Assembly (NCBI GenBank): GCA_001603115.1
Contig: LVBG01000036.1
Coordinates: 1-64,000 of the forward strand
Origin: Spirochaetales bacterium Spiro_05
GTDB taxonomy: Bacteria > Spirochaetota > Spirochaetia > Sphaerochaetales > Sphaerochaetaceae
DNA: 64,000 nucleotides
Direction of reading: 5' to 3'
The stretch's first letter is position 1. Each line of letters begins with the position of its first letter. The notes below the pieces were generated by a model that saw nothing but the letters and a program-made list of their open reading frames with translations, ran no database searches and was not told the origin of the DNA. A program made the translations under genes and the position numbers. Positions 6,423 through 27,655 of the stretch are shown here, piece after piece.

Positions 6423-6424
6423 CC

Positions 6425-8354: not shown

Positions 8355-8379
8355 TGTGCGCCCCTCTCCTTGTAACACC

Positions 8380-9864: not shown

Positions 9865-9884
9865 TCCTTACCCCTTACTTGGTT

Positions 9885-10835
9885 TCAGCTCTTAACGTTC
9901 TTTCGTTTCTGGTCAATCCAAACTGAACCAACAATCAGGACACCCACGATGATTTGCAAAATGAATGCATTGATTCCAAGCAGGTTCCCTCCATTCTGGA
10001 TCAAGGAAATCAGGAGAGCCCCAAGAACCGTTCCCAAAATTGTTCCAGAACCGCCACTAAGGCTGGCACCGCCGACAACAGCAGAAGCAATTGCATCCAT
10101 CTCATAGCCTTGTCCTGCTGTGGGAATACCGTTTCCAAGTCTGCTGGTCATAAGAATGCCTGCAATACCACTGAGCAGGCCACTCATGGCATATACACTC
10201 AGAGTAACTTTAGCCGTATTGATACCCGACAACCGAGCAGCTTCGACGTTGCTGCCATAAGCGAAGATATTACGTCCGAATACTGTTTTCGTGGTCAGAA
10301 TAAAGGTTATCAGAATGACCACCAACCAAACAAAGAACAAGGAAGGAAACCCAATGATTACCTTCTGGGCAAAAGCGGTAAAGGATTTTGGCAAGCCTGC
10401 TATCATTCTTGCATTGGAAAGGAGCATCACAATACCACGGGCAGCTTGCATCATGCCCAAGGTGGCAATGAACGGTGGCACCTTTCCGTAGTGGATAATC
10501 CATCCATTAAGCAAGCCAAGGGTTGTACTCACCAACACAGCAATCAGCAGTGCAGGAAGGATTCCAACTCCACTGACGAGCAGTTTGGAGACAACAATGC
10601 TCGACACCCCGACCACTGAACCAACCGATAGGTCGATCCCGCCACTGATGATTACGAATGTCATACCAAGTGCGATGATCCCATTTACCGAAGTCTGCCG
10701 CACCAGATTCCTCATATTATTTGCAGTGAAGAAATTCTTCGTTGCAAATGAAAGAATGACCATCAGGACAACGACAATCACCAGGAGGTTCCCTTCCGCA
10801 ATTCTGAACCTATGTTTATTGGACAGCAATTTCAT
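9885..10835 (-). CDS. RbsC-type sugar ABC transporter permease
   Basis: A 316-residue inner-membrane permease of the branched-chain/ribose (CUT2) family with about eight to ten hydrophobic segments. GMTFVIISGGIDLSVGS near residues 57-73 is the family hallmark, and YGSNVEAARLSGIN is the cytoplasmic coupling loop. SD AAGGAG. It probably forms the membrane channel as a homodimer with the ATPase at 10860-12350 and the binding protein at 12435-13463. Confidence 0.92.
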   Translation of the reverse strand: MKLLSNKHRFRIAEGNLLVIVVVLMVILSFATKNFFTANNMRNLVRQTSVNGIIALGMTFVIISGGIDLSVGSVVGVSSIVVSKLLVSGVGILPALLIAVLVSTTLGLLNGWIIHYGKVPPFIATLGMMQAARGIVMLLSNARMIAGLPKSFTAFAQKVIIGFPSLFFVWLVVILITFILTTKTVFGRNIFAYGSNVEAARLSGINTAKVTLSVYAMSGLLSGIAGILMTSRLGNGIPTAGQGYEMDAIASAVVGGASLSGGSGTILGTVLGALLISLIQNGGNLLGINAFILQIIVGVLIVGSVWIDQKRKNVKS

Positions 10836-10859
10836 CTCTCTCTCCTTACCTGTTCGTAC

Positions 10860-12350
10860 TTATAAGCCGGAAGCGTATCGCAGAAGGGTCTCTTCCTTGA
10901 AATCTTCCCGATCCACAACATGGGCCATACTTCCCTCATGCAATACTCCGATCCTATCCGAGAGTCCCATGACCTCCGGCAGGTAGGACGATATCAAGAT
11001 GACTGCATGCCCTTCTCTTGTCAGTTCCTCAATCAACTTGTAAATCTCTTGTTTTGCCCCAACATCAATCCCAACCGTCGGTTCGTCAAAAATGAACAGG
11101 TTGCTCTCACAACACAGCCATTTTGCAATGATGACCTTCTGTTGGTTTCCTCCAGAGAGGTTCCGTACATATTGGTGGATGGAAGGCGTCTTGATTCGCA
11201 GACGTTTGACAGAGTCCTCGGATCTTGCCCGTTCTTTTTTGCCTTGCACGAAGGAGAACCGGGAAATAGCTTTATAGGAAGCCAGATTGATGTTGTGATT
11301 GATCGTCTGCGCCAGCGCAAGTCCCTGGTGTTTCCGATCTTCAGGGAGCAAGCCGATTCCAAGTGAAATCGCTTGGGAAGGATGCTTGATTTTTACAGGA
11401 TTACCTTTGAAGTACACTTGCCCCCCATCAATGGGGTCAGCCCCATAGATGGCGCGCACCACTTCTGTTCGCCCTGAACCGACCAAGCCAAACAGACCAA
11501 AAATCTCGCCTTGCTTTACTGAGAAGGAAATATCCTTAAGAACCTTGGTACGGCTAAGGTTCTCTACCTTCAGCAACTCCTCTCCCTTAGGGAAGTGATC
11601 GATATTGTACATGTCGGTAAGGTCACGACCCACCATCAACGAAATCAACTCGTCCTGATTCGTCTTGGATACAGGGAGTGTTTTGACATGCTTCCCGTCC
11701 TTGAGTACGGAGACATTGTCACAAACGGAAAATATCTCCTCAAGTCGGTGTGAAATATAAATGACGGATATGCCGCTTTCTTTCAGCTTTCTGATGATTT
11801 CGAAGAGTATTACCACCTCTTCATTGCTCAAGAGTGCCGTAGGCTCATCAAAAATGATAAGTTTTGCCTTCTTGTGCACAGTCTTTGCAATCGCAACCAT
11901 CTCCTGCATCGCAGGGGAAAGTTCGGTAATTTTCAACCTAGGATTGACATCAACGTTCAATGCCTTGAGGGTTTCCTCAGTTTTGGTGTAGACATAGTCC
12001 CAATCTATCAGTCCATTTTTCTTTCGAGGGAACTGCCCCATAAAGAAATTTTCCCCAATTGAAAGATGGTGAGCAAGGGTAAGATCCTGATAAACAGCAG
12101 CCAGACCCATTTTTCCCGCTTCTATGACATTGGGAATGTCAACCTCAGTTCCATCAAGGCTGATGCTGCCCTCATCCTTCTGATAGACACCCATGATAAT
12201 CTTGATGATGGTGGATTTCCCTGCGCCATTTTCTCCAACCAGTGCATGCACTTCACCAGGGTATACCGTCAGGTCAACCTTATCGAGCGCCTTTACCCCT
12301 GGGAACTGTTTGGAGATGCCCCGCATTTCCAAGAATGGTCTAGCTTCCAT
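10860..12350 (-). CDS. RbsA-type sugar ABC transporter ATPase (two nucleotide-binding domains)
   Basis: A 496-residue tandem ATPase of the CUT2 family. The first domain has Walker A GENGAGKS (residues 39-46), Walker B LIIFDEPTALL and a degenerate signature LSPAMQEM. The second domain has the degenerate Walker A GLVGSGRTE usual for the family, an intact LSGGNQQK signature and LFIFDEPTVGID. It energises import of a monosaccharide or polyol. SD AGGAGG; 84 bases after the binding-protein gene, the gap being filled by a hairpin. Confidence 0.93.
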   Translation of the reverse strand: MEARPFLEMRGISKQFPGVKALDKVDLTVYPGEVHALVGENGAGKSTIIKIIMGVYQKDEGSISLDGTEVDIPNVIEAGKMGLAAVYQDLTLAHHLSIGENFFMGQFPRKKNGLIDWDYVYTKTEETLKALNVDVNPRLKITELSPAMQEMVAIAKTVHKKAKLIIFDEPTALLSNEEVVILFEIIRKLKESGISVIYISHRLEEIFSVCDNVSVLKDGKHVKTLPVSKTNQDELISLMVGRDLTDMYNIDHFPKGEELLKVENLSRTKVLKDISFSVKQGEIFGLFGLVGSGRTEVVRAIYGADPIDGGQVYFKGNPVKIKHPSQAISLGIGLLPEDRKHQGLALAQTINHNINLASYKAISRFSFVQGKKERARSEDSVKRLRIKTPSIHQYVRNLSGGNQQKVIIAKWLCCESNLFIFDEPTVGIDVGAKQEIYKLIEELTREGHAVILISSYLPEVMGLSDRIGVLHEGSMAHVVDREDFKEETLLRYASGL

Positions 12351-12383
12351 CCCGGACCTCCTATCGTATATGACTGAAAACTG

Positions 12384-12413
12384 CCCTAGCTCCTCCTCGA
12401 GGAGAAGCCAGGG
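12384..12413 (-). terminator. Intercistronic hairpin after the RbsB-like gene
   Basis: On the plus strand CCCT-A-GCT-C-CTCC, loop TCGA, GGAG-A-AGC-C-AGGG: an 11-bp stem with two mismatches between the binding-protein stop (12435) and the ATPase start (12350). There is no T-run on the minus strand, so it more likely attenuates transcription or protects the upstream mRNA than terminates fully. Confidence 0.6.
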
Positions 12414-12434
12414 ACTTTTTGTAGGTGAGGATGA

Positions 12435-13463
12435 TCAATACTTCTTGAGTGTGAACGGATCCAGAATTCCCTGAGAAGCGGGATCATTGACATTGTGCTG
12501 CTCAACGATGACGACACCAGTGTCGACATATGCAGGAAGGGTTGCACCTTCGATTGCCTTGACAGCAGAATCAACGCCCTTGTAACCCATCCCATACGGA
12601 TCCTGGACCATGATGGCCTTGATGGCTCCGCTCTTGATGGCTGCGACTTCTTCGGGGTCGGAGTCATACGCAGTGACGATGATCCTGTTGTGAAGATTCT
12701 GTTCAGTTATCGCACGGGCTACGCCGTCTGCGGAGTGGTTGTTGTCAGCAAAGATACCAATCAGGTCTCTTCCGTAAGTGGTGATCAAGTCCTCAGTGGT
12801 GGAGAGTGCCTTGATGATGTCGTTGTCAACATATCTGGTAGGAATAATCTCGATACCGGGGATCAGCTGTTTGATGCGAGTAATGAAGCCATTGTCGCGA
12901 TCGGTCAGAACCTGGACACCAGCCATGGCGCTCACTACAGCAATCTTCTTGCCTGCGGTCGCGATGTTGTTCTTCTTCAGGTACTCAAACATTTTCTCTG
13001 CTGCAAGAGATCCACCATACGTGTTGTCAGTTGCGAGGAAAGAATGAACCTTCGGTGTATTAACCCTGTTGTCGACGGTGATGATCTTGATGCCCTTGTC
13101 ATACGCCATCTCGAGAGCCGGAACGGTCGCATCACTACTGGTTGAAGCAATGACGATACCATCGGGATTCGTGGAGATTACGTTCTCAAGGATGGAGACC
13201 TGCTGGTCGATGTCTGCTTCCGAAGGAGGTCCATAGGTGGTTACCTTGACCAGATCGGGGTGTTCAACCGCATAGTTGTTTGCACCAACAAGCAGATACT
13301 GCCAGAAATCGGAGTCCGTTGCCTTGATGATTACGGCAATGTTGTAGGGCTTTACACCCTTAGGACCAGTTTGAGCTTCCTTAGCTCCCTGTGCGAACAA
13401 ACCAGATACGACGATGGCAAGCAAAAGCAGCACTACCAACGCACTCTTTCCAAGTTTCTTCAT
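12435..13463 (-). CDS. RbsB-type sugar ABC transporter substrate-binding protein
   Basis: A 342-residue periplasmic binding protein (CUT2/LacI-like fold). Residues 1-25 form a signal peptide (KK, then a leucine/valine-rich core) ending FAQGAKEA; there is no lipobox Cys. The mature domain begins YNIAVIIKATDSDFWQYLL and contains the alternating Rossmann elements typical of ribose/galactose binders (GIVIASTSSDATVP, VVSAMAGVQVLTDR). SD AGGAGG. First gene of the ten-gene operon; ligand unknown, probably a pentose or polyol. Confidence 0.92.
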   Translation of the reverse strand: MKKLGKSALVVLLLLAIVVSGLFAQGAKEAQTGPKGVKPYNIAVIIKATDSDFWQYLLVGANNYAVEHPDLVKVTTYGPPSEADIDQQVSILENVISTNPDGIVIASTSSDATVPALEMAYDKGIKIITVDNRVNTPKVHSFLATDNTYGGSLAAEKMFEYLKKNNIATAGKKIAVVSAMAGVQVLTDRDNGFITRIKQLIPGIEIIPTRYVDNDIIKALSTTEDLITTYGRDLIGIFADNNHSADGVARAITEQNLHNRIIVTAYDSDPEEVAAIKSGAIKAIMVQDPYGMGYKGVDSAVKAIEGATLPAYVDTGVVIVEQHNVNDPASQGILDPFTLKKY

Positions 13464-13840
13464 AATTTCCTCCTAATTTTTTGAAAAAATGAACTTATGG
13501 AAGATATTGCAAATAGTGTGCCAAGAATCTCAATATTGTTTGTATATAACTAGTATCTCTATATAAAATTTAATGTTATAGATAATTGAAATAATTAAAG
13601 ACATTCTCTGGGTACAGCTCAAGTGTACTGCACCCATCCCAATAGTGTTCAATTATTGTACATGTCTCTACACATGTTGAACACAGAGAGTATTTTCAGG
13701 CTATGGTTCCATCTCGCAGACGACTTGAACCAAGAGCGATGATTTATGTAGCTGATGATTTGAACTTACGTTCATTTGTTTTATGCATGTACAATGCAAC
13801 ATGAACACAAGCTTGCCTGATTTGGTGAATGATACAAAAG
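13464..13840 (-). promoter_or_regulatory. Leader and control region of the RbsBAC operon
   Basis: Part of a 430-base gene-free stretch between the RbsB-like start (13463) and the glycohydrolase stop (13894). Bases 13500-13600 are very AT-rich, with TATATA repeats around 13542-13565, but I find no convincing -35/-10 pair. A nested dyad lies at 13645-13684 (arms GTGTTCAA and TTGAACAC, with two ACATGT copies inside) and is a candidate operator. No gene is seen. Confidence 0.4.
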
Positions 13841-13873
13841 CTGGAATCCATCCTTCAAGGGATATGATTCCAG
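13841..13873 (-). terminator. Rho-independent terminator of the AtuA/glycohydrolase operon
   Basis: Stem CTGGAATC/GATTCCAG with inner ATCC/GGAT, followed on the minus strand by CTTTTG. It lies 21 bases beyond the last stop codon of the operon (13894). Confidence 0.65.
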
Positions 13874-13893
13874 CCATATGCATGAACAGGAAG

Positions 13894-14880
13894 TTACTGA
13901 ACCAATTCCGCCAACTGCTCGCCCATTTCCACAATATCCAAGCCCTTGGTGAACTGCAGGCAAGTTCCTGAGGGACGACGCACCTTCTCCACCCAATGAT
14001 AGGGGATGGAAGAGAGGCCGTACTTGGCTCCCAAGATAGCGCCAGCTACTGCACCAATGGTATCGGCATCACGGGCAAAGTTCCCTGCCAGTACCAAAGA
14101 GGAACGGAAGTCACCGTTGCTGAGCCTGAGGCACGCAAATGCAGCAGGAATTGCCTCTGCAGTGGTCGCCCAGGTGCTCGCCTTGATCTCATCATGGAGT
14201 GCCATCCAACTGTCGATGACCTTGCCTTGAGCCTTGTCGACAATCTCGAAGGCACGCATCATGTTGTGATACAGCCAGCTGTCGGAGGGAATCGGCTTGA
14301 GGGCAGCAGCGAAGATCTCCTCCCAACTGCCATCCGCCATTGCCACGGCAACTGCAGCCGCTACTGCCTGTGCTCCCCACACCCCATCGGCATAGTGGCT
14401 GACCGAGGCATCGATGGCTGCCATCTCAATTGCACGGTCGGGCTCTGCTGCACAGATGATTCCCACCGGGGGAATGCGCATTGCCGTCCCGTCGCTCATA
14501 TGGAAGGTGTTGAACTTCCCGCTCTGCGGGGGACGAAGGCCTTTGCGCAGGTTGTTGGCAGCAGCAACCTCGCTTGCCCCACCCCGCTTGAACTCATCCT
14601 GCACCACCACATCCTCAAACCACGCTTCAACCACCGCCTCGCTGGTCAGCTTTCCCTTGTTTCTGATCAAGGTCTTCGCCGTAAGCAGGGCGAACTCGGT
14701 ATCATCGGTGCTCCAGGTGGCTCCGGCATTGAAGTCGGTGATGAACCCGTAGGTCTCCCGATTTGCCTGCATCCGGGCTGCATCCCCAAAACTGTCTCCT
14801 ACTGCGAGCCCAATCAGAGCCCCTACAGCCTTTTCCCGCACCAACGCCCGGTTGGCCACCAATGCTGAACGTGTAATCAT
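13894..14880 (-). CDS. ADP-ribosylglycohydrolase-family protein
   Basis: A 328-residue DraG/ARH-fold hydrolase. The two metal-binding motifs of the family are intact: STDDT at residues 57-61 and RDADTIGA with Asp271 and Asp273. These ligate two Mg ions in enzymes that cleave ADP-ribose-protein or O-acetyl-ADP-ribose N- or O-glycosidic bonds. It begins one base after the preceding family member and has SD AAAGGAG. As the last gene of a sugar-import operon it more probably hydrolyses an imported ribosyl or similar glycoside than reverses protein ADP-ribosylation; this is inference from context. Confidence 0.85.
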   Translation of the reverse strand: MITRSALVANRALVREKAVGALIGLAVGDSFGDAARMQANRETYGFITDFNAGATWSTDDTEFALLTAKTLIRNKGKLTSEAVVEAWFEDVVVQDEFKRGGASEVAAANNLRKGLRPPQSGKFNTFHMSDGTAMRIPPVGIICAAEPDRAIEMAAIDASVSHYADGVWGAQAVAAAVAVAMADGSWEEIFAAALKPIPSDSWLYHNMMRAFEIVDKAQGKVIDSWMALHDEIKASTWATTAEAIPAAFACLRLSNGDFRSSLVLAGNFARDADTIGAVAGAILGAKYGLSSIPYHWVEKVRRPSGTCLQFTKGLDIVEMGEQLAELVQ

Positions 14881-14881
14881 C

Positions 14882-16969
14882 CTAATTCTCCTTTATCTGC
14901 AGGTTGCCGAATCCGACTCGACCCCGCTCGTAGAGGGCAAAGCCCACCATCCCATAGGCAAGACTCTCATCGGCTGCATCCAGAGGGTCAAACCCTGACA
15001 CTTCAAGGTGCATGGTTGTACCGGTAACGCTGAATGCAATCTCGTATTCGGTTTCCAAGGTGGGAAGTTGCTCTACAGCAGCAAGGGCAATCATCTTGTC
15101 CCCTGTATGCTTGAAAATTCCCAGTTTCCCCTCATGAAAGCCACCATAATAGCCTCTCTGTGCTCCCTGAACCCTCAGACTGAGCAAAGCAGATCTTCCG
15201 CTGTGCACAACCAAAGTGGAGTGAAGAGAGACATCCTTGGCAAAGTAGTTGCCCGTCATCGCCTCAGCATGGTCAAGCGTCATTGCCTCCATCCACCGCT
15301 TGTCCACCAGCTCCCAGGAACCATGGTTGTGGCTGAAGGGGGTGATGGAAGCAAACTCCTTGGTTTGCTTGCCAACATCGATGAGGTAGTCGGCTTTTCC
15401 TGAAACCCGGAAATACTGGAGATGGAGAACTCCGAAATCACGATTCTTGGCCGGGGAGTTCGCCTCGAAATGCAAGCCAATCTCATCAATCATCGCCCCT
15501 TGGAGTTTGGGATGATGGGGGTCGATGACAAAGGAGAGCTCATGTACCTGTTCGTCGTACACCACCTCATTACTGAACAACACATGCTCACCCGTGGTGG
15601 TATTGCGTACATAGGCCGAGATCAAGACCGACTCGCCGCTGAACTTCTCCAACCGATACGCCAGGCTCACCGTCTGCCCAGGGTACACGGTGGGAGAGAA
15701 GACAGGCATATAGCGCTCATCATCGAAATCGCTTCTCCGATAGAATGGCTTGTAGAAGAGCTTGCACGACTGGGGACGAACCATCCTGTCATAGCGCATC
15801 TCAAGTCCTTCGCCCCTATTGGAGAGGGCGCAAGCATTGGGATTTGAAACCCGGAAACCATGGATGGAACCAGGAAGCGAGAAATCAAAATCAATCGTCC
15901 CTTCCTCCCTATCAAACCCTTCAGGAACAGCCAACCCACGGGTTCTCAGACTGAGCGCACAGAGCTGTCTGACATAGGTGGGAATATCCAGGATGTTGAG
16001 GTAGCCTGAGATGCCGGAGAGTACCAGCATATCGTTGAGGGGAGCGCGATAATGCTCTTCCACTGCCTCCAATGAACCGGCAACACCAAGGATTGATCCC
16101 ACATTTCCTGCATTGCAATCGGTATCCCACCCTGCCATGGTGGCAATCTCCACCCCACGGCTCAACTTCTTCCCATAGAGCAAAGCCATGACGCAAACCC
16201 CTGCATTGGGAATGATGTGGCAGATGCCCGGATACCGGTCATAGCCCCAGTTCTGCTGCAGATACGTGAGGCATAAACGCCAGTCCTTTGGGTTCATTGC
16301 ATGGAAGTCCCGTACTGCGTTGACCACAGCAGCATAGGTGGAAGTGGGAGAAATCTGGGCCAGGGCGGCATCGAGGATGGCATCGACATCCTCAGTCTCG
16401 AACGCCTTGGCTATGGCTGCTCCAATGAATGCAGCTCCCTCAAGCCCCTCCCCGTCGTGGGAAACAGAGGCAGCTATCCGTGCATAACGGGCTGCATTCT
16501 TGCAATCCTCGGGAAAGAGAAAGCCCCAGGTATCGATGAAAATCTGGCCTCCAATCTGTTCGGCCAGTGTCTTTCCGTTTATTTCTATTGATCCAGACTT
16601 AGGGGCCGGGATCCCTGCTTTCAGATTCAGATAGGCGGTGTGTTCGGTACTCACCCCGTAGCCACCCCACCAGAACATGCCCACCCCTTCCCGGCTGTAG
16701 TTCAGCCAAGCCTCGGCTACCGATGAGCAGTCAAGCTCTTCGGATTGTGGAGTATCGTTGAGGGCACGCAAGAAGAAGACCGGTCCATTGGCATCATCAT
16801 CAGCGGCGAAGTTCTTGAAGGACTTCACATACGATCTGATATCGCCATAGAAGCGCTCGATGCGTTCACTGGTCCATTGGCTCGGCTCCACCGGAGCTCC
16901 CAGCCTGATACCGATATTCATTCCCAGAAAACCTGCGTATACACGCTTCAGGTACTCTACAGTGGTCAT
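14882..16969 (-). CDS. ADP-ribosylglycohydrolase-family protein with C-terminal beta-sandwich-like region
   Basis: A 695-residue protein, twice the usual family length. Residues 1 to about 340 form the all-helical glycohydrolase domain, with variant metal motifs: ADDDAN (Asp57-Asp59) replaces (S/T)xDDT, and WDTDCNAGNVG (Asp282, Asp284) is the second site. Residues about 370-695 are rich in beta-type sequence and resemble concanavalin-like modules, ending in repeated short hydrophobic strands (MHLEVSGFD, YGMVGFALYERGRVGF). No signal peptide, so it is probably cytoplasmic. SD GAGGA. It follows the binding-protein gene after a hairpin. I infer hydrolysis of an imported glycoside, with the extra half binding sugar. 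Confidence 0.8.
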   Translation of the reverse strand: MTTVEYLKRVYAGFLGMNIGIRLGAPVEPSQWTSERIERFYGDIRSYVKSFKNFAADDDANGPVFFLRALNDTPQSEELDCSSVAEAWLNYSREGVGMFWWGGYGVSTEHTAYLNLKAGIPAPKSGSIEINGKTLAEQIGGQIFIDTWGFLFPEDCKNAARYARIAASVSHDGEGLEGAAFIGAAIAKAFETEDVDAILDAALAQISPTSTYAAVVNAVRDFHAMNPKDWRLCLTYLQQNWGYDRYPGICHIIPNAGVCVMALLYGKKLSRGVEIATMAGWDTDCNAGNVGSILGVAGSLEAVEEHYRAPLNDMLVLSGISGYLNILDIPTYVRQLCALSLRTRGLAVPEGFDREEGTIDFDFSLPGSIHGFRVSNPNACALSNRGEGLEMRYDRMVRPQSCKLFYKPFYRRSDFDDERYMPVFSPTVYPGQTVSLAYRLEKFSGESVLISAYVRNTTTGEHVLFSNEVVYDEQVHELSFVIDPHHPKLQGAMIDEIGLHFEANSPAKNRDFGVLHLQYFRVSGKADYLIDVGKQTKEFASITPFSHNHGSWELVDKRWMEAMTLDHAEAMTGNYFAKDVSLHSTLVVHSGRSALLSLRVQGAQRGYYGGFHEGKLGIFKHTGDKMIALAAVEQLPTLETEYEIAFSVTGTTMHLEVSGFDPLDAADESLAYGMVGFALYERGRVGFGNLQIKEN

Positions 16970-16985
16970 AGACTTTCCTCATTGG

Positions 16986-17016
16986 GTGAAGGCCGGGGCA
17001 ACGCCCCGACCTTCAC
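16986..17016 (-). terminator. Strong intercistronic hairpin after the CUT1 binding-protein gene
   Basis: Arms GTGAAGG-C-CGGGGC and GCCCCG-A-CCTTCAC around AAC, 13 paired bases with one mismatch. There is no T-run on the minus strand. It lies between the binding-protein stop (17024) and the glycohydrolase start (16969), so it probably stabilises the binding-protein mRNA or partly terminates. Confidence 0.65.
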
Positions 17017-17023
17017 AACACAC

Positions 17024-18490
17024 TTACTTCAATACGGTTGCCAGATAGTCGCTGATCTTCGTTCCGCCAGCGGCATTCCACTTGGTCACGAACTCATCAA
17101 AGTCGCTGATCGGCCTCACCCCACGGATGATGTCGGTGGAGTACTCACGATAGAGCTTGTCCATGGCATCCTTTGCCGGCAACAGGTCCTCAGGAAGCAG
17201 GACATTGGTGTCGGGAGCAAAGTATTTGGCTGCAGCATCCAGCGAATCGATGGCAGGCTTGGAGAGCACTTCCCCGACGACGGTGGAAGTATCCAGGCCA
17301 TTCATGGTCGGCCAGAACTTTGCCCACCAGGACGGGAACTGCTTGGTCAGCACATACTTGCCGCCTTCGACCGTATAGTGGATGCCTTCCAGGCCAAGCT
17401 TATCGAGCTTGCGTCCTTCAGGACCTGCCATGTACTCGAGCAGTGCCCACGCAGCATCTTTCACCTTCGAATCGGCATTGATGGCGAACCCACGGCTCTC
17501 CTTGGTGACATCGATGCTCTGATAAGCCTGGCTCACACCCTTGGCAGGAGGAAGCACGAAAAGATCGACACCCTGTGTCTCTTTCATCTTGTTGTTGTAG
17601 ACGTTCACCACATCACCGGCGGTACCGCTGACAAACGCTGCGCTGCCTTCGTAGAAGGACTGCTCCATCGTCTCCCAGGTCTTGGTGACATACTCGTTGT
17701 CCAAAAGTCCTTCCTTGTACAGCTTGGCATAGAAGGCAAGCTTATCGCGGGAAGCCTTGGTGGCATTGGAATAGACCCACTTGCCGTTCTCCTTGACAAT
17801 GGTGGCAGTAAGTCCGAAAGCATGGTTGAAGACTGAGTCGAGCTTGAGGATGCCACCATCGGTGGTGATGGCCCACCTGGCCATTCCGCTCTCCTTGATC
17901 TCCTTGAAGAAGGCGTAGTAGTTGTCTACCGTCGGGTTCTCAAGCAAGGCCTTGCCGGTCTTGAGCTTGGCGAACCAATCGCTTCTCATGACGGGAATCT
18001 GCACACGTGCAGGAGCCAGCCACATCAGGTAGGGATAGTTCTTCATCGCTGCCTTGGTATGGTCGCCCATGATCTTCTTCACATTGACCGACTTCTCCAC
18101 ATAGGGGGTCAGGTCTTCAAGCAAACCCTCCTGGGCCAACGGCTGGTCGTTGCCCTGGAAGTAGATCAGATCGGGGTTGATCTGGCCTGTCCTGTACGCA
18201 ATGGGCACCACCGTGGCATAGCTTCCGGTCGGGGCCGAAAGGATGACCAGATCGATATAGGTCCCCTGCTTTGCCATGCCCTCTTCAATCGCCTTCTCCA
18301 GAAGCCCGAGTTGCTGGGCATCGGTAATGGGGTCGACATCCTTGCACAGATAGGTCACCGTCACCGGCTTGCCCGGTTCTCCGATGCCCCCTGTCTTTGC
18401 AGCAGGTGCTGCTTCCTTGGATCCAGCGGCCATCAGCATGCCGCCCAGGACCAACAAAACTGCCAGTACCACAAATACTTTCTTGTTCAT
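17024..18490 (-). CDS. Extracellular solute-binding protein, family 1 (LplA-like)
   Basis: A 488-residue periplasmic binding protein for a CUT1 importer. The N-terminus MNKKVFVVLAVLLVLGGML is a signal peptide followed by MAAGSKEAAPA. The body shows family-1 features (PDLIYFQGNDQPLAQEGLLEDLTPYV, WALLEYMAGPEG). The ATG at 18490 is chosen because AAGGAGG lies seven bases before it. Long binding proteins paired with LplB/LplC-type permeases usually carry oligosaccharides. The gene order permease-permease-binding protein is the reverse of the other CUT1 operons here. Confidence 0.9.
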   Translation of the reverse strand: MNKKVFVVLAVLLVLGGMLMAAGSKEAAPAAKTGGIGEPGKPVTVTYLCKDVDPITDAQQLGLLEKAIEEGMAKQGTYIDLVILSAPTGSYATVVPIAYRTGQINPDLIYFQGNDQPLAQEGLLEDLTPYVEKSVNVKKIMGDHTKAAMKNYPYLMWLAPARVQIPVMRSDWFAKLKTGKALLENPTVDNYYAFFKEIKESGMARWAITTDGGILKLDSVFNHAFGLTATIVKENGKWVYSNATKASRDKLAFYAKLYKEGLLDNEYVTKTWETMEQSFYEGSAAFVSGTAGDVVNVYNNKMKETQGVDLFVLPPAKGVSQAYQSIDVTKESRGFAINADSKVKDAAWALLEYMAGPEGRKLDKLGLEGIHYTVEGGKYVLTKQFPSWWAKFWPTMNGLDTSTVVGEVLSKPAIDSLDAAAKYFAPDTNVLLPEDLLPAKDAMDKLYREYSTDIIRGVRPISDFDEFVTKWNAAGGTKISDYLATVLK

Positions 18491-18521
18491 CACAAACCTC
18501 CTTGGTTTTTGAAACACACAC

Positions 18522-19412
18522 TTATTCCTTGATCCCACCCGAAAGCACATCCTTGGCATAGAAGCGGAGGACAAACGGGTAGAGAATCAGAATCGGGATG
18601 ATTGCCACGATGATCGTGGCTCCCTTGAGGGCGCTGTAGTCGGCGCGGGCAAGGGCATTGTAGTCGAACACATTCTGCTGTCCCAGAATCGAGACCGTAT
18701 CACCAAGCACCACGAACTGGCGCAACACCACCTGAAGCACCGTATCGGTGGATTTGCGGGTAAGGTAGATGCCGGCACGGAAGTACTCGTTCCACCTGAC
18801 CACTGCATAGAACATCGTGATGGTGGCCACCCCTGCCTTGCTCAGTGGGTAGAAGATGTGACCCAGCATCTGCAGGTGGCTCGCCCCATCGATGGTGGCG
18901 GCTTCTACGATTGACTGCGGCACCTTCTCGAAGTAGCGCATCATGATGATCAGGTAGTAGACGTTCACCGCGGTGACCAGGATGACACTCCACTTGCTGC
19001 CCATCAGCCCCAACTTCTGTACCACCAGGTACTCGGGAACCAGACCTGGGTCAAAGAGCATCATGATGATCAGAAAGACCATGATCGGACGTTTCAAGGC
19101 CAGACGCGGCCTGGTCAGAGCGTAGGCTGCTGTGGTGGTGAGCACAATGTTCACCGCTGTCCCCACCAAGGTGATGATCAAGGAGTTGATCAAGGAGGGC
19201 ACCAGGATGGGATGGCTGAAGACTATCCGATAGTTGAGCAGATCCAGCTGCCGGGGCAGGATGGAAAGTCCACCCATAAGGACCGACTCGCTGGGAGTTG
19301 AGAGCGACTTGGCCAGGATATTGAGCAGGGGCACGAGCATGGTCAGGGTCACGAAGAACAGGAAGAGGACCAAGACCAGCTGGCTGACTGATACGCGTTT
19401 TCTGCTTCTCAT
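18522..19412 (-). CDS. CUT1 ABC transporter permease (LplC/MalG type)
   Basis: A 296-residue inner-membrane permease with six predicted transmembrane segments. The EAA coupling loop reads EAATIDGASHLQMLGHIF. The ATG at 19412 shares one base with the stop of the partner permease (TGATG), implying coupled translation; GTG codons at 19415 and 19418 are alternative starts. It pairs with the LplB-type permease. No ATPase gene is present in the operon, as is common for CUT1 systems that use a shared MsmX-like ATPase. Confidence 0.9.
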   Translation of the reverse strand: MRSRKRVSVSQLVLVLFLFFVTLTMLVPLLNILAKSLSTPSESVLMGGLSILPRQLDLLNYRIVFSHPILVPSLINSLIITLVGTAVNIVLTTTAAYALTRPRLALKRPIMVFLIIMMLFDPGLVPEYLVVQKLGLMGSKWSVILVTAVNVYYLIIMMRYFEKVPQSIVEAATIDGASHLQMLGHIFYPLSKAGVATITMFYAVVRWNEYFRAGIYLTRKSTDTVLQVVLRQFVVLGDTVSILGQQNVFDYNALARADYSALKGATIIVAIIPILILYPFVLRFYAKDVLSGGIKE

Positions 19413-20311
19413 CACCACACCCCCGATCCTGTCATCTTCTTGGAGAAGATGTGCGTCGTGTAGACCAGGACAACCCCGACCAAGCCCTTGATCAGGCTGA
19501 CTGCGGTAGCGAGTGAGTACTGCCCTCCCTCAATGCCGATGCGGTAGATGTAGGTATCGAGAATATCAATCGTGCTCTCCACCGCTTGGTTGGAGAAGTT
19601 GAACACCTGGTCGAACCCTGCGTTGAGGAAGAAGCCGAGATTGAGGATGAACATCGTGATCATCGGCGTTATCAATGCCGGCAAAATGATCGATTTGATG
19701 ATCTGCAGACGGCTTGCCCCATCAATCTGGGCCGCCTCATAGAGCGAAGGAGATATGGAAAGGATGGCCGTATAGAAGATGATGGAGTCCCAACCGAGGC
19801 TTCTCCACGCCTCACAGATCATCAGTATCCAGCGAATCTTGGTTCGGTCGGTCATAAAATCCACCGCATCCCCACCGAAGAATATCACGATCTGGTTGAC
19901 CGAGCCTGCCAAGGAGAGTGCGTTGATCCAGATGCCTGCGATGACGACCCAGGAGAGAAAGTGCGGGAGGTAGGAGACAACCTGCACGTATTTTCGGAAC
20001 CGGAAGGAACGGACCTCGTTGAGCATCAGGGCAAAGAGCACAAAGCCGGGGAAGAGCAGGACATACTTCATGAAACTGATGATCAGGGTGTTGGCCAGTA
20101 TCTGTGCAAACGCCGGGCTGGAGAAGATCATCTCAAAGTATTTGAGCCCGACAAACGGCCAGTTTCCCCGTGCCCGGAACTGGAAGAAAGCAAGGCGCAT
20201 GTTGATGATCGGCAGCACCCTGAACAGGATGAAATAGAGCAAGGTGGGGAGGAGCAGCAGGTAGAGCACCCTCTGCGCCTTTATCTCTTTCAGCAGTTTC
20301 TTGCCTTTCAT
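19412..20311 (-). CDS. CUT1 ABC transporter permease (LplB/MalF type)
   Basis: A 299-residue permease with six hydrophobic segments and the coupling loop EAAQIDGASRLQIIKSIILP. The N-terminal lysine-rich stretch (MKGKKLLKEIKAQR) is cytoplasmic. SD AGGAGGGAG. It follows the DUF4387 gene by 12 bases. Together with the next permease and the binding protein it forms an oligosaccharide importer of the Lpl group. Confidence 0.9.
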   Translation of the reverse strand: MKGKKLLKEIKAQRVLYLLLLPTLLYFILFRVLPIINMRLAFFQFRARGNWPFVGLKYFEMIFSSPAFAQILANTLIISFMKYVLLFPGFVLFALMLNEVRSFRFRKYVQVVSYLPHFLSWVVIAGIWINALSLAGSVNQIVIFFGGDAVDFMTDRTKIRWILMICEAWRSLGWDSIIFYTAILSISPSLYEAAQIDGASRLQIIKSIILPALITPMITMFILNLGFFLNAGFDQVFNFSNQAVESTIDILDTYIYRIGIEGGQYSLATAVSLIKGLVGVVLVYTTHIFSKKMTGSGVW

Positions 20312-20323
20312 ACGTTCTCCCTC

Positions 20324-20635
20324 CTAGGGAATCAGAAGATTCATCAGGGGTGCATGTTGCTGCGCCCCATACACATCCCTATCCCCACACGTGCCGGAAC
20401 TGACAGGACGGCGATACGTGATCTTGATGCCCAAGGCAGATTCAAAGAAGTAGATGCCCAGCAGTTGCCCCGCAGCAAGCTGATAGCAGGAGTTCAGGGT
20501 AGCCTCACACAGCACCCCGCTCTCAACGACCCTACGGTAGGTAGCAAGGTCATCGAAGAAGAGATCGAGGGTAATGAGAAACGGGCCGCTGTTCTTGCTG
20601 CGGAGCATCCGGGCCAATTCATACAGTCTTGTCAT
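20324..20635 (-). CDS. DUF4387-family protein
   Basis: A 103-residue protein matching the DUF4387 pattern: LYELARMLRSKNSGPFLITLDLFFDD at the N-terminus (positions 4 to about 29), then a Tyr/Arg-rich middle and a short C-terminus. DUF4387 proteins occur next to, or fused behind, AtuA-like (DUF1446) proteins, as here. The ATG at 20635 has GGGGAGG upstream and overlaps the AtuA-like gene by 17 bases; the longer upstream reading lacks an SD. Biochemical role unknown; probably a subunit of the AtuA-like enzyme. Confidence 0.8.
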   Translation of the reverse strand: MTRLYELARMLRSKNSGPFLITLDLFFDDLATYRRVVESGVLCEATLNSCYQLAAGQLLGIYFFESALGIKITYRRPVSSGTCGDRDVYGAQQHAPLMNLLIP

Positions 20636-22004
20636 TGGAGCCTCCCCGTTCCCACCACTGCCAAGGGAAGAGGGCGGTGGGTGAATCGACATCCATCAGA
20701 TGATAGACACTGAACGCATAGACAGCACCGAAGGGAATATCACTCGGAGCAAACGGGAAGGCCAGGTTTCCGGCCGTCGCTTTCCGCCCTTCGTAGCCGT
20801 AGTGCATGAAGGTGGAACGAACCGATGCACACAAGGCATTGGCCAGCTCCTGGGTTGGGGCAAGCACCTCAAAGACCACCCCAAGTTCATGACCGACGGA
20901 ATGTTCAGGCTCCAGTGAGCCCATCACTCCATCCTTACCGTAGTTGATGAAGTTGATCGAATAGGCATCCCTCTCAATCTCGGGGTACTGCTCCTGTACG
21001 CTCTCCCTCACCAAGACTTCGACTTCCTCAATCTGAGAGACCAAGAGAGGGTCACGCACACCGGCGACCACAAAGGTCCGATAGGCAACCTTGCGCGCAC
21101 CTTCCAACTTGATCTGATAGGGATCGGTAGCCGAAAGGCGGCTCCCCTTCACCCTCACCCTGTTGCGGCTCAATGCCTCAAAGGAGCAGAGGCTGAGATC
21201 CATGGCAATGCCCGGACCATGCAACAGGTAGGGATGATCTTTTTCATAAAAGGTATGGGCGGCCACACTGGTGGGGGTACAAAGTCGCTTCTCATCGCAG
21301 GGATAGACCTCAAAGCAGTCCTCGTAGAGCACACCCAGCATGCAGTCCTTGGTAGTCCCTGGATTGCAGCAGAGCGCGCCGCACTCCAGGACCTTTCCCA
21401 GGTGGTAACTCAAAGCAAGGTCAAACCCATGGAGCACACCAACTGCAGCAAAGGGAGCTGGGTCGTAGGCCCTGCCACAGACAATGAGATCCGCCCCAGC
21501 CTGAAGGACTTCCAAAATCGGCTCGATGCCCATCTGGGCCACCACCCCGGTAGTCTGGCCGAGAACCTGCTCGTCAAGAGGAAGCTCGAGCGCATCCAAA
21601 GGGACAACCTTGCCCTCGTCCAACTGCGCAAGGATGGCCTCATTGGGGATATCGGCCCAAATGACCGCGGTCTTGGGCTGCCAATCCGGATGCTCGGTCA
21701 GAATCTCCTCGATGATATCCATCGTCCAGCGAACATGGCTCTCCCCGCCGCTGCCGCCGGCCGAACCGATCAGGACAGGGATGCCCAGCTCACATCCACC
21801 TTTGATGATGCGCAGCAGGTCCTTCTTTGCAGCCCTCCGGCTGACGATGGCAGTACGTGCCCCAAGCTTGTGAGGCCCTGCATCGGTGGAGCCTGCGTCC
21901 ACGACTATCGCATCGGGTTTTTGCGAGAGTCCATAGGCAAAGGAGGCGTCAGGGAACCCATAACCAAGGATGCCGCAGGGGGAAAGGATGGTGAGCTTTT
22001 TCAC
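20619..22004 (-). CDS. AtuA-like (DUF1446) acyclic-terpene-utilisation-family protein
   Basis: A 461-residue cytoplasmic protein of the DUF1446/AtuA family. The opening LSPCGILGYGFPDASFAYGL (residues 5-24), VDAGSTDAGPHKLG and GSAGGSGGE are characteristic. AtuA was named from the citronellol/geraniol operon of Pseudomonas, but most homologues have no known reaction. Here it sits in a sugar-import operon with DUF4387 and two ADP-ribosylglycohydrolase-like enzymes, so a terpene role is unlikely. Its start overlaps the regulator stop as ATGA. Confidence 0.82.
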   Translation of the reverse strand: MKKLTILSPCGILGYGFPDASFAYGLSQKPDAIVVDAGSTDAGPHKLGARTAIVSRRAAKKDLLRIIKGGCELGIPVLIGSAGGSGGESHVRWTMDIIEEILTEHPDWQPKTAVIWADIPNEAILAQLDEGKVVPLDALELPLDEQVLGQTTGVVAQMGIEPILEVLQAGADLIVCGRAYDPAPFAAVGVLHGFDLALSYHLGKVLECGALCCNPGTTKDCMLGVLYEDCFEVYPCDEKRLCTPTSVAAHTFYEKDHPYLLHGPGIAMDLSLCSFEALSRNRVRVKGSRLSATDPYQIKLEGARKVAYRTFVVAGVRDPLLVSQIEEVEVLVRESVQEQYPEIERDAYSINFINYGKDGVMGSLEPEHSVGHELGVVFEVLAPTQELANALCASVRSTFMHYGYEGRKATAGNLAFPFAPSDIPFGAVYAFSVYHLMDVDSPTALFPWQWWERGGSNDKTV

Positions 22005-22693
22005 TGTACACTCCCCGCTTCCACCCGTTGTCGCCTCTGGCGAACATTGGTGATATGCTGTTCCATCGCCTTGTGGGCAGCGTTCTTGTCCCTCCGACCG
22101 ATGGCCTCAACAATTGCCTGGTGCTCCTGGGCAATGCTTTGCAATGTGCCTTCCTGCTTCTTGTTCGCCTGGGCCAGCTCCTCGATGAGGTCGTAGTAGG
22201 TGTCGATGAAGTTCATGTAAAAGATGTTCCGTGAAGCTTGGGCAAGCTTGTAGTGGAAGTAGTGGTCGAGGCTGAAGTGTCCGCTGAGCTTGAGTGCATC
22301 GGCATCCAGAGTCTGGCGAATCTCCTCGATCTCCTCGTCGGTACAGCGATCGATGACAATCTCCACCATCCTCGACTCCAATGAATCGCGGAAATCGAGA
22401 AGATCCTGGAAGGTCGCTTCCTTCAGGGCATCGGCGACCGGTCTGCTGAGACGATCGATGATGTCTTTCTCGATGAAGGTGCCGTTCTTTGTCTTGCGGC
22501 GGATATAGCCCAGCGCCTGCAACTGGATCATCGCCTCGCGAATCACTCCCCTACTTACGGCAAACTGCTCACAGAAGACCAGTTCACTGGGAAGTTTCTG
22601 TCCCGGTTTCAGGTCCCCACTGTGGATCATGCCCAGAATCTGGTTCACCACCTTGTCGGAGAGACGCTCATTGCGTACGGGTACAAAACTCAC
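22001..22693 (-). CDS. GntR-family regulator with FCD domain
   Basis: A 230-residue transcription factor. The N-terminal winged helix spans about residues 10-75 (LPSELVFCEQFAVSRGVIREAM recognition region), and the C-terminal FCD ligand domain has the usual metal-binding His/Asp positions (DHYFHYKL, EHQAIVEAI, MEQHI). A GTG at 22693 is the start because AAAGGAG lies six bases upstream; an ATG at 22738 would put the operator inside the gene. It is the first gene of the eight-gene operon and probably represses it through the palindrome at 22712-22726, released by the imported sugar or a derivative. Confidence 0.88.
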   Translation of the reverse strand: MSFVPVRNERLSDKVVNQILGMIHSGDLKPGQKLPSELVFCEQFAVSRGVIREAMIQLQALGYIRRKTKNGTFIEKDIIDRLSRPVADALKEATFQDLLDFRDSLESRMVEIVIDRCTDEEIEEIRQTLDADALKLSGHFSLDHYFHYKLAQASRNIFYMNFIDTYYDLIEELAQANKKQEGTLQSIAQEHQAIVEAIGRRDKNAAHKAMEQHITNVRQRRQRVEAGSVQ

Positions 22694-22711: not shown

Positions 22712-22726
22712 ATTTGTCGGACAAAT
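22712..22726. promoter_or_regulatory. Operator palindrome of the GntR/FCD regulator
   Basis: A perfect palindrome ATTTGTC-G-GACAAAT that fits the TTGTCnnACAA-like consensus of FadR-type GntR proteins. Relative to the minus-strand promoter at 22729-22757 it covers the predicted transcription start, so binding would block initiation. Confidence 0.7.
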
Positions 22727-22886: not shown

Positions 22887-25236
<2,350 letters not shown>

Positions 25237-25239
25237 CGC

Positions 25240-26142
25240 TTACCTCCCTTCCTTATTGGCGAAGAGCTTGCGCTGCAAGAGCGAGAAGCCCAGAACGACG
25301 AGGAAGAAGGCGATTGACATGGTGGATGCATACCCCAGCCTTCTGTTGGTGAAGCCTGACTCATAGATGTAATGCACGATGGTGCGGGTATGGGTACCCG
25401 GTCCGCCGCCTGCCATCAGGTAGGTCTGTCCGAAAAGCTTGAAAGAGGCGATCATCTGCAGCATCACCACCAGAACCGTACTCTCACGGAGCATCGGGAT
25501 GGTAATCTTGAAAAGCACCTGCGCCTTGGAAGCCCCATCAATTTCCGCTGCCTCATACATCTCGGTTGGGATGTTCTGCAAAGCGGCAAGGAAAAGCACC
25601 ATGTCAAACCCTACCGTCCACCAGACGGTGGTCATGAGGATTGCCAGCCAGACGATTCCTCGGGTACTGAGCCAGAAAATCTCCTGCCCACCGAATTTGG
25701 TTATGATCGTGTTGATCAGGCCGGTATAGGGCTGGAAGATGAAAATCCACAAGCCGGTGACGACCGACATGGAGAGCACATATGAAGAGAAATAGGCAGT
25801 TCTCAGGAACACAGTGCCTTTGAGTTTCGCGTTGATGAGCATGGCAAGAACAAATCCTACCACGACGATGGTCGGGGTGCTGATGAGAACAAAGTAGAGG
25901 GTGTTCCCCATGGAACCCCAAAAATCCTTGTCAGCGAGCATCTCGGCATAGTTTTCCAGTCCGATGATGCGTACGGTTCCTACCAAGCGGGCATTTGTGA
26001 AGCTCGTATAGAGGCCGCGGAAGATGGGAAACAGGAGAAACGCTGCATATAAAGCGAGAAAGGGAAGCATGAACAGCCAAGCTGCTAATGACTCTTTTCG
26101 CTGTGCTGCATGCAAATCGTGTTGTTTGTTGAGAGAACCCAT
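25240..26142 (-). CDS. CUT1 ABC transporter permease (MalF type)
   Basis: A 300-residue permease with six transmembrane stretches; the EAA loop is EAAEIDGASKAQVLFKITIP. The cytoplasmic N-terminus is polar (LNKQHDLHAAQRKE). SD AAGGAGG seven bases before the ATG. It is preceded by a 124-base gap holding two hairpins after the binding-protein gene. Confidence 0.92.
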   Translation of the reverse strand: MGSLNKQHDLHAAQRKESLAAWLFMLPFLALYAAFLLFPIFRGLYTSFTNARLVGTVRIIGLENYAEMLADKDFWGSMGNTLYFVLISTPTIVVVGFVLAMLINAKLKGTVFLRTAYFSSYVLSMSVVTGLWIFIFQPYTGLINTIITKFGGQEIFWLSTRGIVWLAILMTTVWWTVGFDMVLFLAALQNIPTEMYEAAEIDGASKAQVLFKITIPMLRESTVLVVMLQMIASFKLFGQTYLMAGGGPGTHTRTIVHYIYESGFTNRRLGYASTMSIAFFLVVLGFSLLQRKLFANKEGR

Positions 26143-26184
26143 GCATGAGCCTCCTTATCAGTTGATTGGTCAAGAGGAACAACA

Positions 26185-26250
26185 GGACAGCACTCCATAC
26201 TGGGGGCTGTCCCGTCATTATCGTAAGGATCGGATGCACCCGAGGGTGCA
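26185..26250 (-). terminator. Two intercistronic hairpins after the arabino-oligosaccharide binding-protein gene
   Basis: Hairpin one has arms GGACAGC (26185-26191) and GCTGTCC (26206-26212). Hairpin two is TGCACC-CGAG-GGTGCA within 26235-26250. Both lie between the binding-protein stop (26267) and the permease start (26142). Neither has a T-run, so differential mRNA stability or partial termination is likely. Confidence 0.6.
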
Positions 26251-26266
26251 CCTGATTACACTAGAC

Positions 26267-27541
26267 TCAGCGCTTCTGGTCCAGAAGTCTCTGGTATCCA
26301 GCCTGCATGTTGGCAGCGGTGGTGTTGACATCCTGATCGCCAGCGATCATGGTTGCCAGCTCTCTCTGCACTACTTCGATCATACCGGTGAGAGAAAGGG
26401 ACCTCGGATAGAAGTGGGCATACTCTGCACTCTTGGCATACTCGGAGCGGTAGGGAAGAGCCTTAAACTCAGCACTATCAACAATCTTGGTCTTGCTGGG
26501 GATATGACCGGCCTGTGCCCAATCAAGGGTGTTGTCAGCCATCCAAGCCATGAACTCCATCGCAGCCTGCTTCTTCGCATCACTCTGGCGGCTGGTGGGC
26601 ATTACCATGGTGTGGGAGTCAGCATAGACCGAATTCACATTGGTGAACTGCGGGAAGGGCATGGAGATGAATTCAAGTCCATTGACCTTCTCGAAGATGG
26701 GGATACCCCAGTTGCCGTTGATGGTGGCGGTTGCGCGGAAACCCGTGAAGATCTCAGCACCATTCTTCTGACCCTTCGGCCAGATGCCACTGTCAACCAT
26801 CTGCTTCATGACGCTCAGTGCCTTCTTGTTCTCAGCAGTGTCCAGGGTTGCCTTGGTGCCATCTGCGTTCTGGATCTCTCCACCGTACTGGGTCAACAGG
26901 GTGTACCACACATACTGGGGAAGACCGAACTGAGAGGTACCGGAAAGAGGCATCTGGTTATCACCAAGCTTGCCCTTGACTGCGTTGAAGTAGTCAAAGA
27001 ACGCCTTCTCACCGCGAGCCATTGCAGGCTTGCCATTTGCATCGAGCATTCCCAATTCACCAAGCCACTTGGTGTTGAAATGCATCAACAGAAGGTGGGT
27101 GTCAAGCGGAACTGCATAGTAATTGCCATCAATCTGGGCAGCCTTCTGCAAGACGCCACTGAAGTCACCCCAGTTCATGCCAACAGCCGAAGCATACTTG
27201 TTCAAAGGTTCAAGCAAGTTGTCAGAGGTGAACTCAAGCAACCTGGACAGGTGCAGGATAGCCACATCGGGAGCGGAGTTTGAAGAGACGGAAACCATAA
27301 GTTTGGTATAGTACTCTTCAGACTTGAAGATCAGGAACTCAACTTCACTGGTTTTGCTCTGGGCGTTGAAGTCAGCAACAATGCTCTTCATGATGTCTCC
27401 ATCACCGCCGCTGAACGGAGACCAGAAAGTGATCTTGGTCTTCTCACCGGGTTTTGCACTCTCTTGTGTGCCGGCTGCAAATACTGTGGCCGAAACGACC
27501 AACATGAGCGCCAATGCCAATACAAGCACTCTCTTTGTCAT
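26267..27541 (-). CDS. Extracellular solute-binding protein, family 1
   Basis: A 424-residue periplasmic sugar-binding protein of the MalE/UgpB group. Signal peptide about residues 1-22 (MTKRVLVLALALMLVVSATV), then FAAGTQESAKPG without a lipobox Cys. The mature start TKITFWSPFSGGDGDIMKSI and APDVAILHLSRL are typical. SD AGGAGG. It leads the operon with two permeases and the GH51 arabinofuranosidase, so arabinose-containing oligosaccharides are the probable ligand. Confidence 0.93.
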   Translation of the reverse strand: MTKRVLVLALALMLVVSATVFAAGTQESAKPGEKTKITFWSPFSGGDGDIMKSIVADFNAQSKTSEVEFLIFKSEEYYTKLMVSVSSNSAPDVAILHLSRLLEFTSDNLLEPLNKYASAVGMNWGDFSGVLQKAAQIDGNYYAVPLDTHLLLMHFNTKWLGELGMLDANGKPAMARGEKAFFDYFNAVKGKLGDNQMPLSGTSQFGLPQYVWYTLLTQYGGEIQNADGTKATLDTAENKKALSVMKQMVDSGIWPKGQKNGAEIFTGFRATATINGNWGIPIFEKVNGLEFISMPFPQFTNVNSVYADSHTMVMPTSRQSDAKKQAAMEFMAWMADNTLDWAQAGHIPSKTKIVDSAEFKALPYRSEYAKSAEYAHFYPRSLSLTGMIEVVQRELATMIAGDQDVNTTAANMQAGYQRLLDQKR

Positions 27542-27621: not shown

Positions 27622-27655
27622 AGTATCAACTATAATCAAATATTTGTCAAACAAA
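27622..27655 (-). promoter_or_regulatory. Promoter and overlapping palindrome of the arabinofuranosidase operon
   Basis: -35 TTGACA (27645-27650), 17-base spacer, -10 GATACT (27622-27627), giving a leader of about 74 bases. The -35 is embedded in a palindrome TTTGT-CAA-ACAAA (27643-27655), a plausible repressor site. The region 27656-27735 is AT-rich, and an AT-only hairpin near 27724-27737 (AACAA/TTGTT) may end the GH2 transcript. Confidence 0.65.

Follow-up and report, generated by a model that had tools for sequence, protein, structure and literature searches.

Enzymes of the ADP-ribosylglycohydrolase family PF03747 are known for acting on ADP-ribose bonds, and proteins of the AtuA and DUF4387 families have been deposited in the Protein Data Bank (PDB) as the two chains, cmlA and cmlB, of a citramalate lyase (entries 9erq and 9evf, the latter titled 'Citramalate lyase - ADP - pyruvate complex' and released on 2025-10-08). 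A 2015 article mentions a DUF1446 gene, without an assigned function, that follows mal, together with the view that the citramalate lyase of Clostridia is a homologue of CitDEF (PMC4682846). In this work, we describe an operon in which PF03747, AtuA and DUF4387 proteins are encoded together: eight packed genes on the minus strand (13894-22693) of a 64,000-nucleotide stretch of contig LVBG01000036.1 (hereafter the window) from Spirochaetales bacterium Spiro_05, whose assembly comprises 2.3 Mb in 69 contigs and is 68.57% complete. They encode a GntR/FCD regulator, AtuA, DUF4387, a carbohydrate uptake transporter 1 (CUT1) importer made of LplB- and LplC-type permeases and a solute-binding protein (SBP), and two PF03747 proteins, termed ARH1 and ARH2. 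A preliminary description had proposed an importer-linked pathway for a ribosyl or nucleotide-sugar-like compound in which AtuA/DUF4387 act on the released acid. As a prediction, its ribosyl and acid parts are supported and narrowed by a ribokinase gene in 52 of 80 related loci and by the swapping of AtuA/DUF4387 for citrate-cleaving enzymes, and on balance we favour an operon for the import and degradation of a citrate riboside or of the riboside of a similar acid such as citramalate.

The predicted acid-cleaving genes and their replacements

For AtuA (20619-22004, minus strand) and DUF4387 (20324-20635, minus strand; PF14330, E 4.8e-33), the citramalate lyase 9erq/9evf is the sole PDB sequence match at E <= 1, through chain A (E 6e-129) and chain B (E 3e-18), respectively, and the two proteins are predicted to be the CmlA-like large and CmlB-like small subunits of an acid lyase. 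Aligned with the printed part of 9erq_A, the window AtuA shares 209 of 429 residues (48.7%), and its structural model (predicted local distance difference test score 89.4) matches 9evf_A with a template modelling score of 0.93. The earlier remark that AtuA/DUF4387 have no settled reaction is thus outdated for the sister pair, which stands in the PDB as citramalate lyase A/B; in the open-access literature searched, we found no paper on this citramalate lyase and nothing on DUF4387 or on AtuA together with citramalate. The title of 9evf, with ADP and pyruvate bound, hints at a nucleotide role in the reaction. Both genes are encoded together, DUF4387 being present in 79 of 80 loci seeded with AtuA, which are the 80 best among 115 confirmed ones and comprise near-duplicate Paenibacillus species as well as short contigs; the exception, L072, ends just after AtuA.

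In an AtuA tree built by a quick method and rooted at the midpoint, the sequences from the operon group in a single clade (Shimodaira-Hasegawa-like approximate likelihood ratio test (SH-aLRT) 99, without L080) and 9erq lies in another (SH-aLRT 94); the window AtuA therefore falls outside the clade of the solved enzyme, the two clades being sisters. The AtuA of L080 is sister to the operon clade (SH-aLRT 90), and its AtuA/DUF4387 pair (26-11692) stands beside a TRAP-type transporter, a molybdenum hydroxylase and a flavin mononucleotide oxidoreductase with no PF03747 match nearby, which suggests that AtuA/DUF4387 can act on a free organic acid. DUF4387 is present in 19 of 392 Spirochaetota genomes, and the 18 neighbourhoods besides the window include four with the importer/PF03747 operon (L115, L118, L119, L120), 12 with lower-scoring AtuAs (L105-L114, L116, L117) and two more distant ones (L121, L122). 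One of the 12, L107, carries a GlmS-GlmL-GlmE-Mal-AtuA-DUF4387 cluster whose first four members score above curated cut-offs and whose AtuA belongs to the sister (citramalate) clade; profile checking among the 12 covered L107 only, the others being assessed by gene size, by eye or not at all. Fourteen AtuA positions switch between the two clades. Four of the residues, H45, K46, K219 and K408, flank motifs common to both clades and are identical in 84 of 84 operon-clade AtuAs; in the citramalate clade (n = 12), position 45 is Y in 11 and H in one, 46 is Y in 12, 219 is S in 10 and A in two, and 408 is I in 10 and K in two. These basic residues would fit room for an extra, third carboxylate as in citrate.

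A search with ARH1 reached 25 of 392 Spirochaetota genomes at E <= 1e-20 and 11 at E <= 1e-150, including the window; corresponding figures were 31 of 394 for the window's class, three of 391 for the class of the L033 genome (Clostridium), 25 of 104 for the family of the L020 genome (Paenibacillus) and two of 200 for that of the L069 genome. From these, 46 neighbourhoods outside the window were taken at E <= 1e-150, including 11 of the 25 from L020's family; several come from the same genomes as AtuA-seeded loci or are near-copies of them. Exactly one acid-cleaving module was found in 39 of the 46 and none in seven: AtuA/DUF4387 in 18, CitDEF in 12, an ADP-forming acyl-coenzyme A (CoA) ligase with citryl-CoA lyase in four, a SucCD-like ligase with citryl-CoA lyase in three, and a ligase with a CitE-like protein in two. 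Two modules never occurred together within the stretches covered, in the 46 ARH1-seeded or the 80 AtuA-seeded loci. Among the module-less loci, the contigs of L179, L183, L193, L197 and L199 are shorter than 8 kb, and that of L199 has a 126-bit match to CitDE; in L201 the sequence breaks off within ARH1, and L184 is without an importer match. None of seven control loci with distant ARH1 paralogues held any citrate-cleaving module.

The replacements occur in operons of the same kind, with at least one same-kind importer gene in 20 of the 21 replaced-module loci and only distant permease matches in the other (L187). In profile checks, which cover part of these loci, CitF, checked in five of the 12, passes its equivalog cut-off in L153, L154 and L200, and citryl-CoA lyase exceeds a subfamily cut-off in L158 and L189. 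The Clostridia locus L200 combines ARH1, two further PF03747 genes, a ribokinase match, a LacI gene and the importer with a citrate lyase set that exceeds every cut-off (bits/cut-off: CitC 347.3/262.1, CitD 116.4/63.5, CitE 445.1/443.4, CitF 759.1/501.45, CitG 276.3/272.3 and CitX 169.9/105.25, G and X on one open frame). On the ARH1 tree, the module labels, outgroup included, need seven changes (minimum 5, shuffled mean 23.2); the starred branches force at least three changes of the AtuA label, and CitDEF (L200) and ligase/CitE (L205, L209) are nested among AtuA-bearing operons. The replacing families share a reaction, the cleavage of a citrate-type acid into acetate or acetyl-CoA and an oxoacid, and thus these unrelated enzymes occupy one slot of the operon. 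It is mainly from this slot, filled by different families, that we name the acid, most likely citrate or something closely related; the basic residues, the citryl-CoA lyases and L200 lead us to rank citrate tentatively above citramalate.

According to the leading alternative, itself unlikely, the pathway is the same and the acid is citramalate or another 2-hydroxy-2-alkyl succinate, which AtuA/DUF4387, as an ordinary citramalate lyase, would convert to pyruvate and acetate. The identity and common fold with CmlA agree with this, as does the view of the Clostridia citramalate lyase as a CitDEF homologue; however, the window AtuA belongs to the sister clade and bears the four extra basic residues, and the citryl-CoA lyases of L158 and L189 and the full set of L200 point to citrate.

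The ribosyl bond and the proposed pathway

ARH1 (14882-16969, minus strand; 695 aa, a PF03747 domain plus two beta-sandwich domains) and ARH2 (13894-14880, minus strand; 328 aa, Pfam E 3.3e-53) are predicted ribosyl hydrolases; both match the PF03747 profile, and structure comparison confirmed the fold for ARH1. The aspartates that form metal sites in DraG/ARH3 are conserved in ARH1 (D57, D58, D282 and D284, in 42 of 42 rows) and in ARH2 (D59, D60, D271 and D273, in 23 of 23 aligned rows, with the TDDT and DADT motifs invariant). With the NCBIfam equivalogs for DraG and Tri1, ARH2 obtains 62.3 and 69 bits, below the curated cut-offs of 337.05 and 490, and ARH1 gave no match to them at E <= 0.001. 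By eye, neither protein has a signal peptide. For ARH1, the fold of the C-terminal domain is similar to that of CBM66, a fructan-binding module from Bacillus subtilis, and the middle beta-sandwich (about 355-525) is barely covered by fold matches. The second PF03747 gene belongs to a different subfamily (22-29% identity) in Paenibacillus and some others.

Further PF03747 genes were seen outside the operon or in variants of it. The same genome holds one that matches in two pieces, one of them with an in-frame TGA (G000:C57:49112-50144; L003, L004), a PF03747-type protein with a DraG model match below cut-off lies downstream of CitF in L153 (9740-11248), and in L041, a variant with two ARH1 copies, a metallo-beta-lactamase-fold protein (PF12706; 4727-5629) is encoded between PF03747 genes. 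In L159 and L160, ARH1 paralogues (38-40% identity) stand beside distant CUT1-type permease matches without a citrate-cleaving module; therefore, ARH1-like enzymes probably serve further glycosides.

The gene set recurs in Spirochaetota and Bacillota, the nearest AtuA relatives being Spirochaetia, including Sphaerochaeta. Genes of the relatives were located by six-frame family mapping, greedy gene calling having lost real genes on GC-rich loci. Besides DUF4387, the 80 AtuA loci hold ARH1 in 74, LplB, LplC, SBP and ARH2-type genes in 73 each, and ribokinase in 52, the commonest further enzyme gene among the mapped families; AtuA, DUF4387, LplB, LplC and SBP follow in this order on one strand in 57, sometimes with other genes intervening. 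In the 62 loci with at least 9 kb on both flanks, the counts are 62 for DUF4387, 60 for ARH1, 61 for ARH2-type, 58 for LplB, 59 each for LplC and SBP, and 44 for ribokinase. The preliminary description would have failed if the set were confined to this strain, which does not hold, each of the DUF4387, PF03747 and importer genes being kept in 58-62 of the 62 well-flanked relatives. For all six kinases compared with TIGR02152, ribokinase was the best family; those of L020, L075 and L053 pass the cut-off and those of L008, L009 and L013 fall below it. L029 encodes an RbsR-like LacI-type regulator fused to a ribokinase domain above cut-off (8018-9973). In several other loci, AtuA is preceded by weaker matches to ribokinase, a HAD-type phosphatase family occurs in nine, and esterase-like genes in L023, L033, L061 and L079.

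In the pathway that we favour, the importer would take up the intact acidic glycoside, and the two PF03747 enzymes, judging by fold and motifs, would hydrolyse its ribosyl bond in the cell interior; the bond would probably have the alpha configuration that known ARH/DraG enzymes cleave. D-Ribose would then be converted to ribose 5-phosphate by a ribokinase, whose gene adjoins the operon in many relatives and lies in the next operon here. AtuA-DUF4387, by comparison with its citramalate lyase homologue and from the replacement pattern, would cleave the free acid to acetate and a 2-oxoacid, oxaloacetate if the acid is citrate, and the GntR/FCD regulator would bind the palindrome at the front of the operon and sense substrate or product. 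Ribocitrin, an alpha-D-ribofuranosyl citrate from Streptomyces and, to our knowledge, the sole natural product of the ribosyl-citrate kind, is the first candidate for the natural substrate. One article presents it as a dextransucrase inhibitor, tentatively identified in Streptomyces by liquid chromatography-mass spectrometry, and cites a 1982 structure paper (PMC13136089); ribocitrin catabolism was not found in the open-access literature searched. Two other substrate types were rejected: nothing was found in support of a nucleotide-sugar-like compound, which the preliminary description had mentioned, and methanopterin-type or other alpha-ribosides would need no acid lyase.

Several findings weigh against a citrate riboside. 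The main one, directed at its ribose half, is the missing ribokinase in replaced-module Spirochaetia: of the 21 replaced-module loci, three (L200, L205 and L209) match ribokinase, L158 has a fragment of the gene, and the remaining 17 have no match. It is also missing nearby in 18 of the 62 well-flanked AtuA loci, and the eight-gene operon has none of its own. ARH2 has an invariant Arg36 at the position of a Glu in 6dre (23 rows), and the reading offers no reason for keeping two PF03747 enzymes. The nearest solved relatives of the SBP are AlgQ1/AlgQ2, at weak E-values (9e-10 at best), and these bind uronate oligosaccharides. As for the acid, citramalate-clade AtuAs include one H45 and two K408 among the 12, the CitF proteins of L185 and L192 score just below the curated cut-off, and the citryl-CoA lyase of L156, the ligases checked and the CitE-like protein of L205 also fall short of theirs. 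Furthermore, replacement alone fails to separate citrate from citramalate, since CitDEF-type enzymes, according to the 2015 article, include putative citramalate lyases (PMC4682846).

The scarcity of ribokinase in the replaced-module loci lowers the odds of a citrate riboside and raises those of the second alternative, in which the sugar is another furanose (apiose, arabinofuranose or fructofuranose) and the ribokinase-like enzyme, where present, acts on that sugar. This is improbable too, even if the CBM66-like domain of ARH1, the adjoining arabinofuranosidase operon and the three of six kinases below the ribokinase cut-off are in line with it: ribokinase is the best family for six of six kinases, the fused regulator of L029 is RbsR-like, and ARH-fold enzymes bind ADP-ribose, as in structures among the fold matches. 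In a third alternative, which is highly improbable, the PF03747 enzymes are not catabolic but act on the ribosyl prosthetic group of citrate lyase, the phosphoribosyl-dephospho-CoA borne by CitD, or remove ADP-ribose from the lyase in keeping with the bonds that their family cleaves. Against this, the same genes occur with the AtuA/DUF4387 and ligase/citryl-CoA lyase systems, which are not known to require such a group, and a sugar importer almost always stands next to them.

Operon layout, control elements and neighbouring genes

The order of the eight genes and their overlaps or short gaps, as first described, were confirmed by open reading frames, Pfam matches and spacing. The remaining genes, all on the minus strand, encode the GntR/FCD regulator (22001-22693; PF00392 and PF07729), the LplB-type permease (19412-20311; PF00528, E 4e-13), the LplC-type permease (18522-19418; PF00528, 27.8 bits against a cut-off of 26.4) and the SBP (17024-18490; PF01547, E 2.8e-19). 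Pfam families above cut-off in the eight proteins are GntR and FCD, AtuA, DUF4387, BPD_transp_1 (twice), SBP_bac_1 and ADP_ribosyl_GH (twice); two BPD_transp_1 permeases with an SBP_bac_1 protein correspond to a CUT1 (LplABC-type) importer, and no ATPase gene was found among the eight by reading frames and Pfam. Overlaps measure 4 nt (GntR/AtuA), 17 nt (AtuA/DUF4387, the ATG of DUF4387 lying at 20635) and 7 nt (LplB/LplC), and gaps 12 nt (DUF4387-LplB), 31 nt (LplC-SBP), 54 nt (SBP-ARH1) and 1 nt (ARH1-ARH2).

For the regulator, a GTG start at 22693 is preferred to an ATG farther upstream, at 22738, because AAAAGGAG directly precedes the GTG and the ATG would put the operator inside the regulator gene. 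The operator expected in front of the operon was found as a perfect 15-bp palindrome, ATTTGTCSGACAAAT, at 22712-22726. Matches with up to two mismatches number two in the window against 0.18 expected, a count reached in one of 100 shuffles; genome-wide, its 13-nt core with up to one mismatch is no commoner than the same pattern backwards (2 per strand against 6). Palindromes of like layout lie near the regulator start in 19 of the 31 relatives with a GntR gene before AtuA and in none of the other 12, counts that are given without a chance level: ATTTGTCNGACAAAT in L006 and L007, AATTGTTNAACAATT or its core in nine (L009, L011, L015, L017, L021, L033, L038, L054, L057), and AATTGG...CCAATT-type palindromes in eight (L020, L030, L034, L042, L043, L047, L049, L063). 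At the other end, a Rho-independent terminator on the minus strand (13840-13874, a stem then TTTTGT) lies just beyond the range of the operon, as predicted; the fold energy of 13825-13885 is -24.9 kcal/mol (z -4.54), a stability that none of 200 shuffles reached, and a consensus terminator scan, confined to loops of 3-8, missed it. The promoter proposed for the front of the operon was not recovered, the consensus scan giving no sigma-70-like site there and four such sites in 12 kb against 7.4 in shuffles.

Upstream, an operon at 22887-27541 includes the arabinofuranosidase gene ArfA (NF051901, 759 bits against a cut-off of 625) and, by eye, its own CUT1 importer. A weaker operator copy precedes it (27642-27656); it was dropped as evidence of co-regulation because the one-mismatch pattern is rarer genome-wide than its reverse. 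Downstream, an operon at 1047-13463 combines, by eye, a ribose-type ABC importer, two FGGY-like kinases and an aldo/keto reductase-like gene with a ribokinase above cut-off (4457-5419, minus strand; TIGR02152, 323.1 bits against 299.65; context by eye), which could serve the eight-gene operon.

Comparison with known systems

Each part of this operon belongs to a known kind; no description of the pathway or of the interchangeable lyase slot came up in the open-access literature searched, where no operon pairing an ADP-ribosylglycohydrolase with citrate lyase or with ribokinase was evident either. We tentatively put forward, at somewhat less than even confidence, that the operon encodes the first pathway for the catabolism of ribocitrin-type citrate ribosides, with PF03747 enzymes as alpha-ribosidases on a small natural product, and that its AtuA-DUF4387 clade is a further, unrelated citrate lyase without acyl carrier protein or CoA thioester, interchangeable with at least three citrate-cleaving systems. 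If true, the PF03747 enzymes of sugar operons would gain a substrate and the AtuA/DUF4387 pair a second role, and ribosyl-citrate would be common enough for a dedicated operon kept in distantly related bacteria. With its repeated exchange of unrelated acid lyases, the operon offers a natural experiment by which sequence alone can narrow down the chemistry of an unknown substrate.

Compared with CmlA/CmlB of the methylaspartate pathway clusters, the window pair consists of the same two families side by side, with the same AtuA fold, but it belongs to a sister clade with 14 clade-specific residue switches and sits in an importer/PF03747 operon instead of beside GlmS/L/E-Mal (profile-checked in L107). 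With the ADP-ribosylglycohydrolases DraG and ARH1/3, the two window enzymes share the PF03747 profile, the acidic motifs and, for window ARH1, the fold, whereas they score below the DraG/Tri1 cut-offs, belong to a catabolic-type operon and, in window ARH1, include two extra beta-sandwich domains. The citrate lyase CitDEF (with CitC, G and X) and the citryl-CoA ligase/lyase systems take the place of AtuA/DUF4387 in related operons, although they are of other Pfam families and have no match in the window. Finally, ribocitrin, a ribosyl citrate, consists of the same parts that the predicted enzymes of the operon would release.

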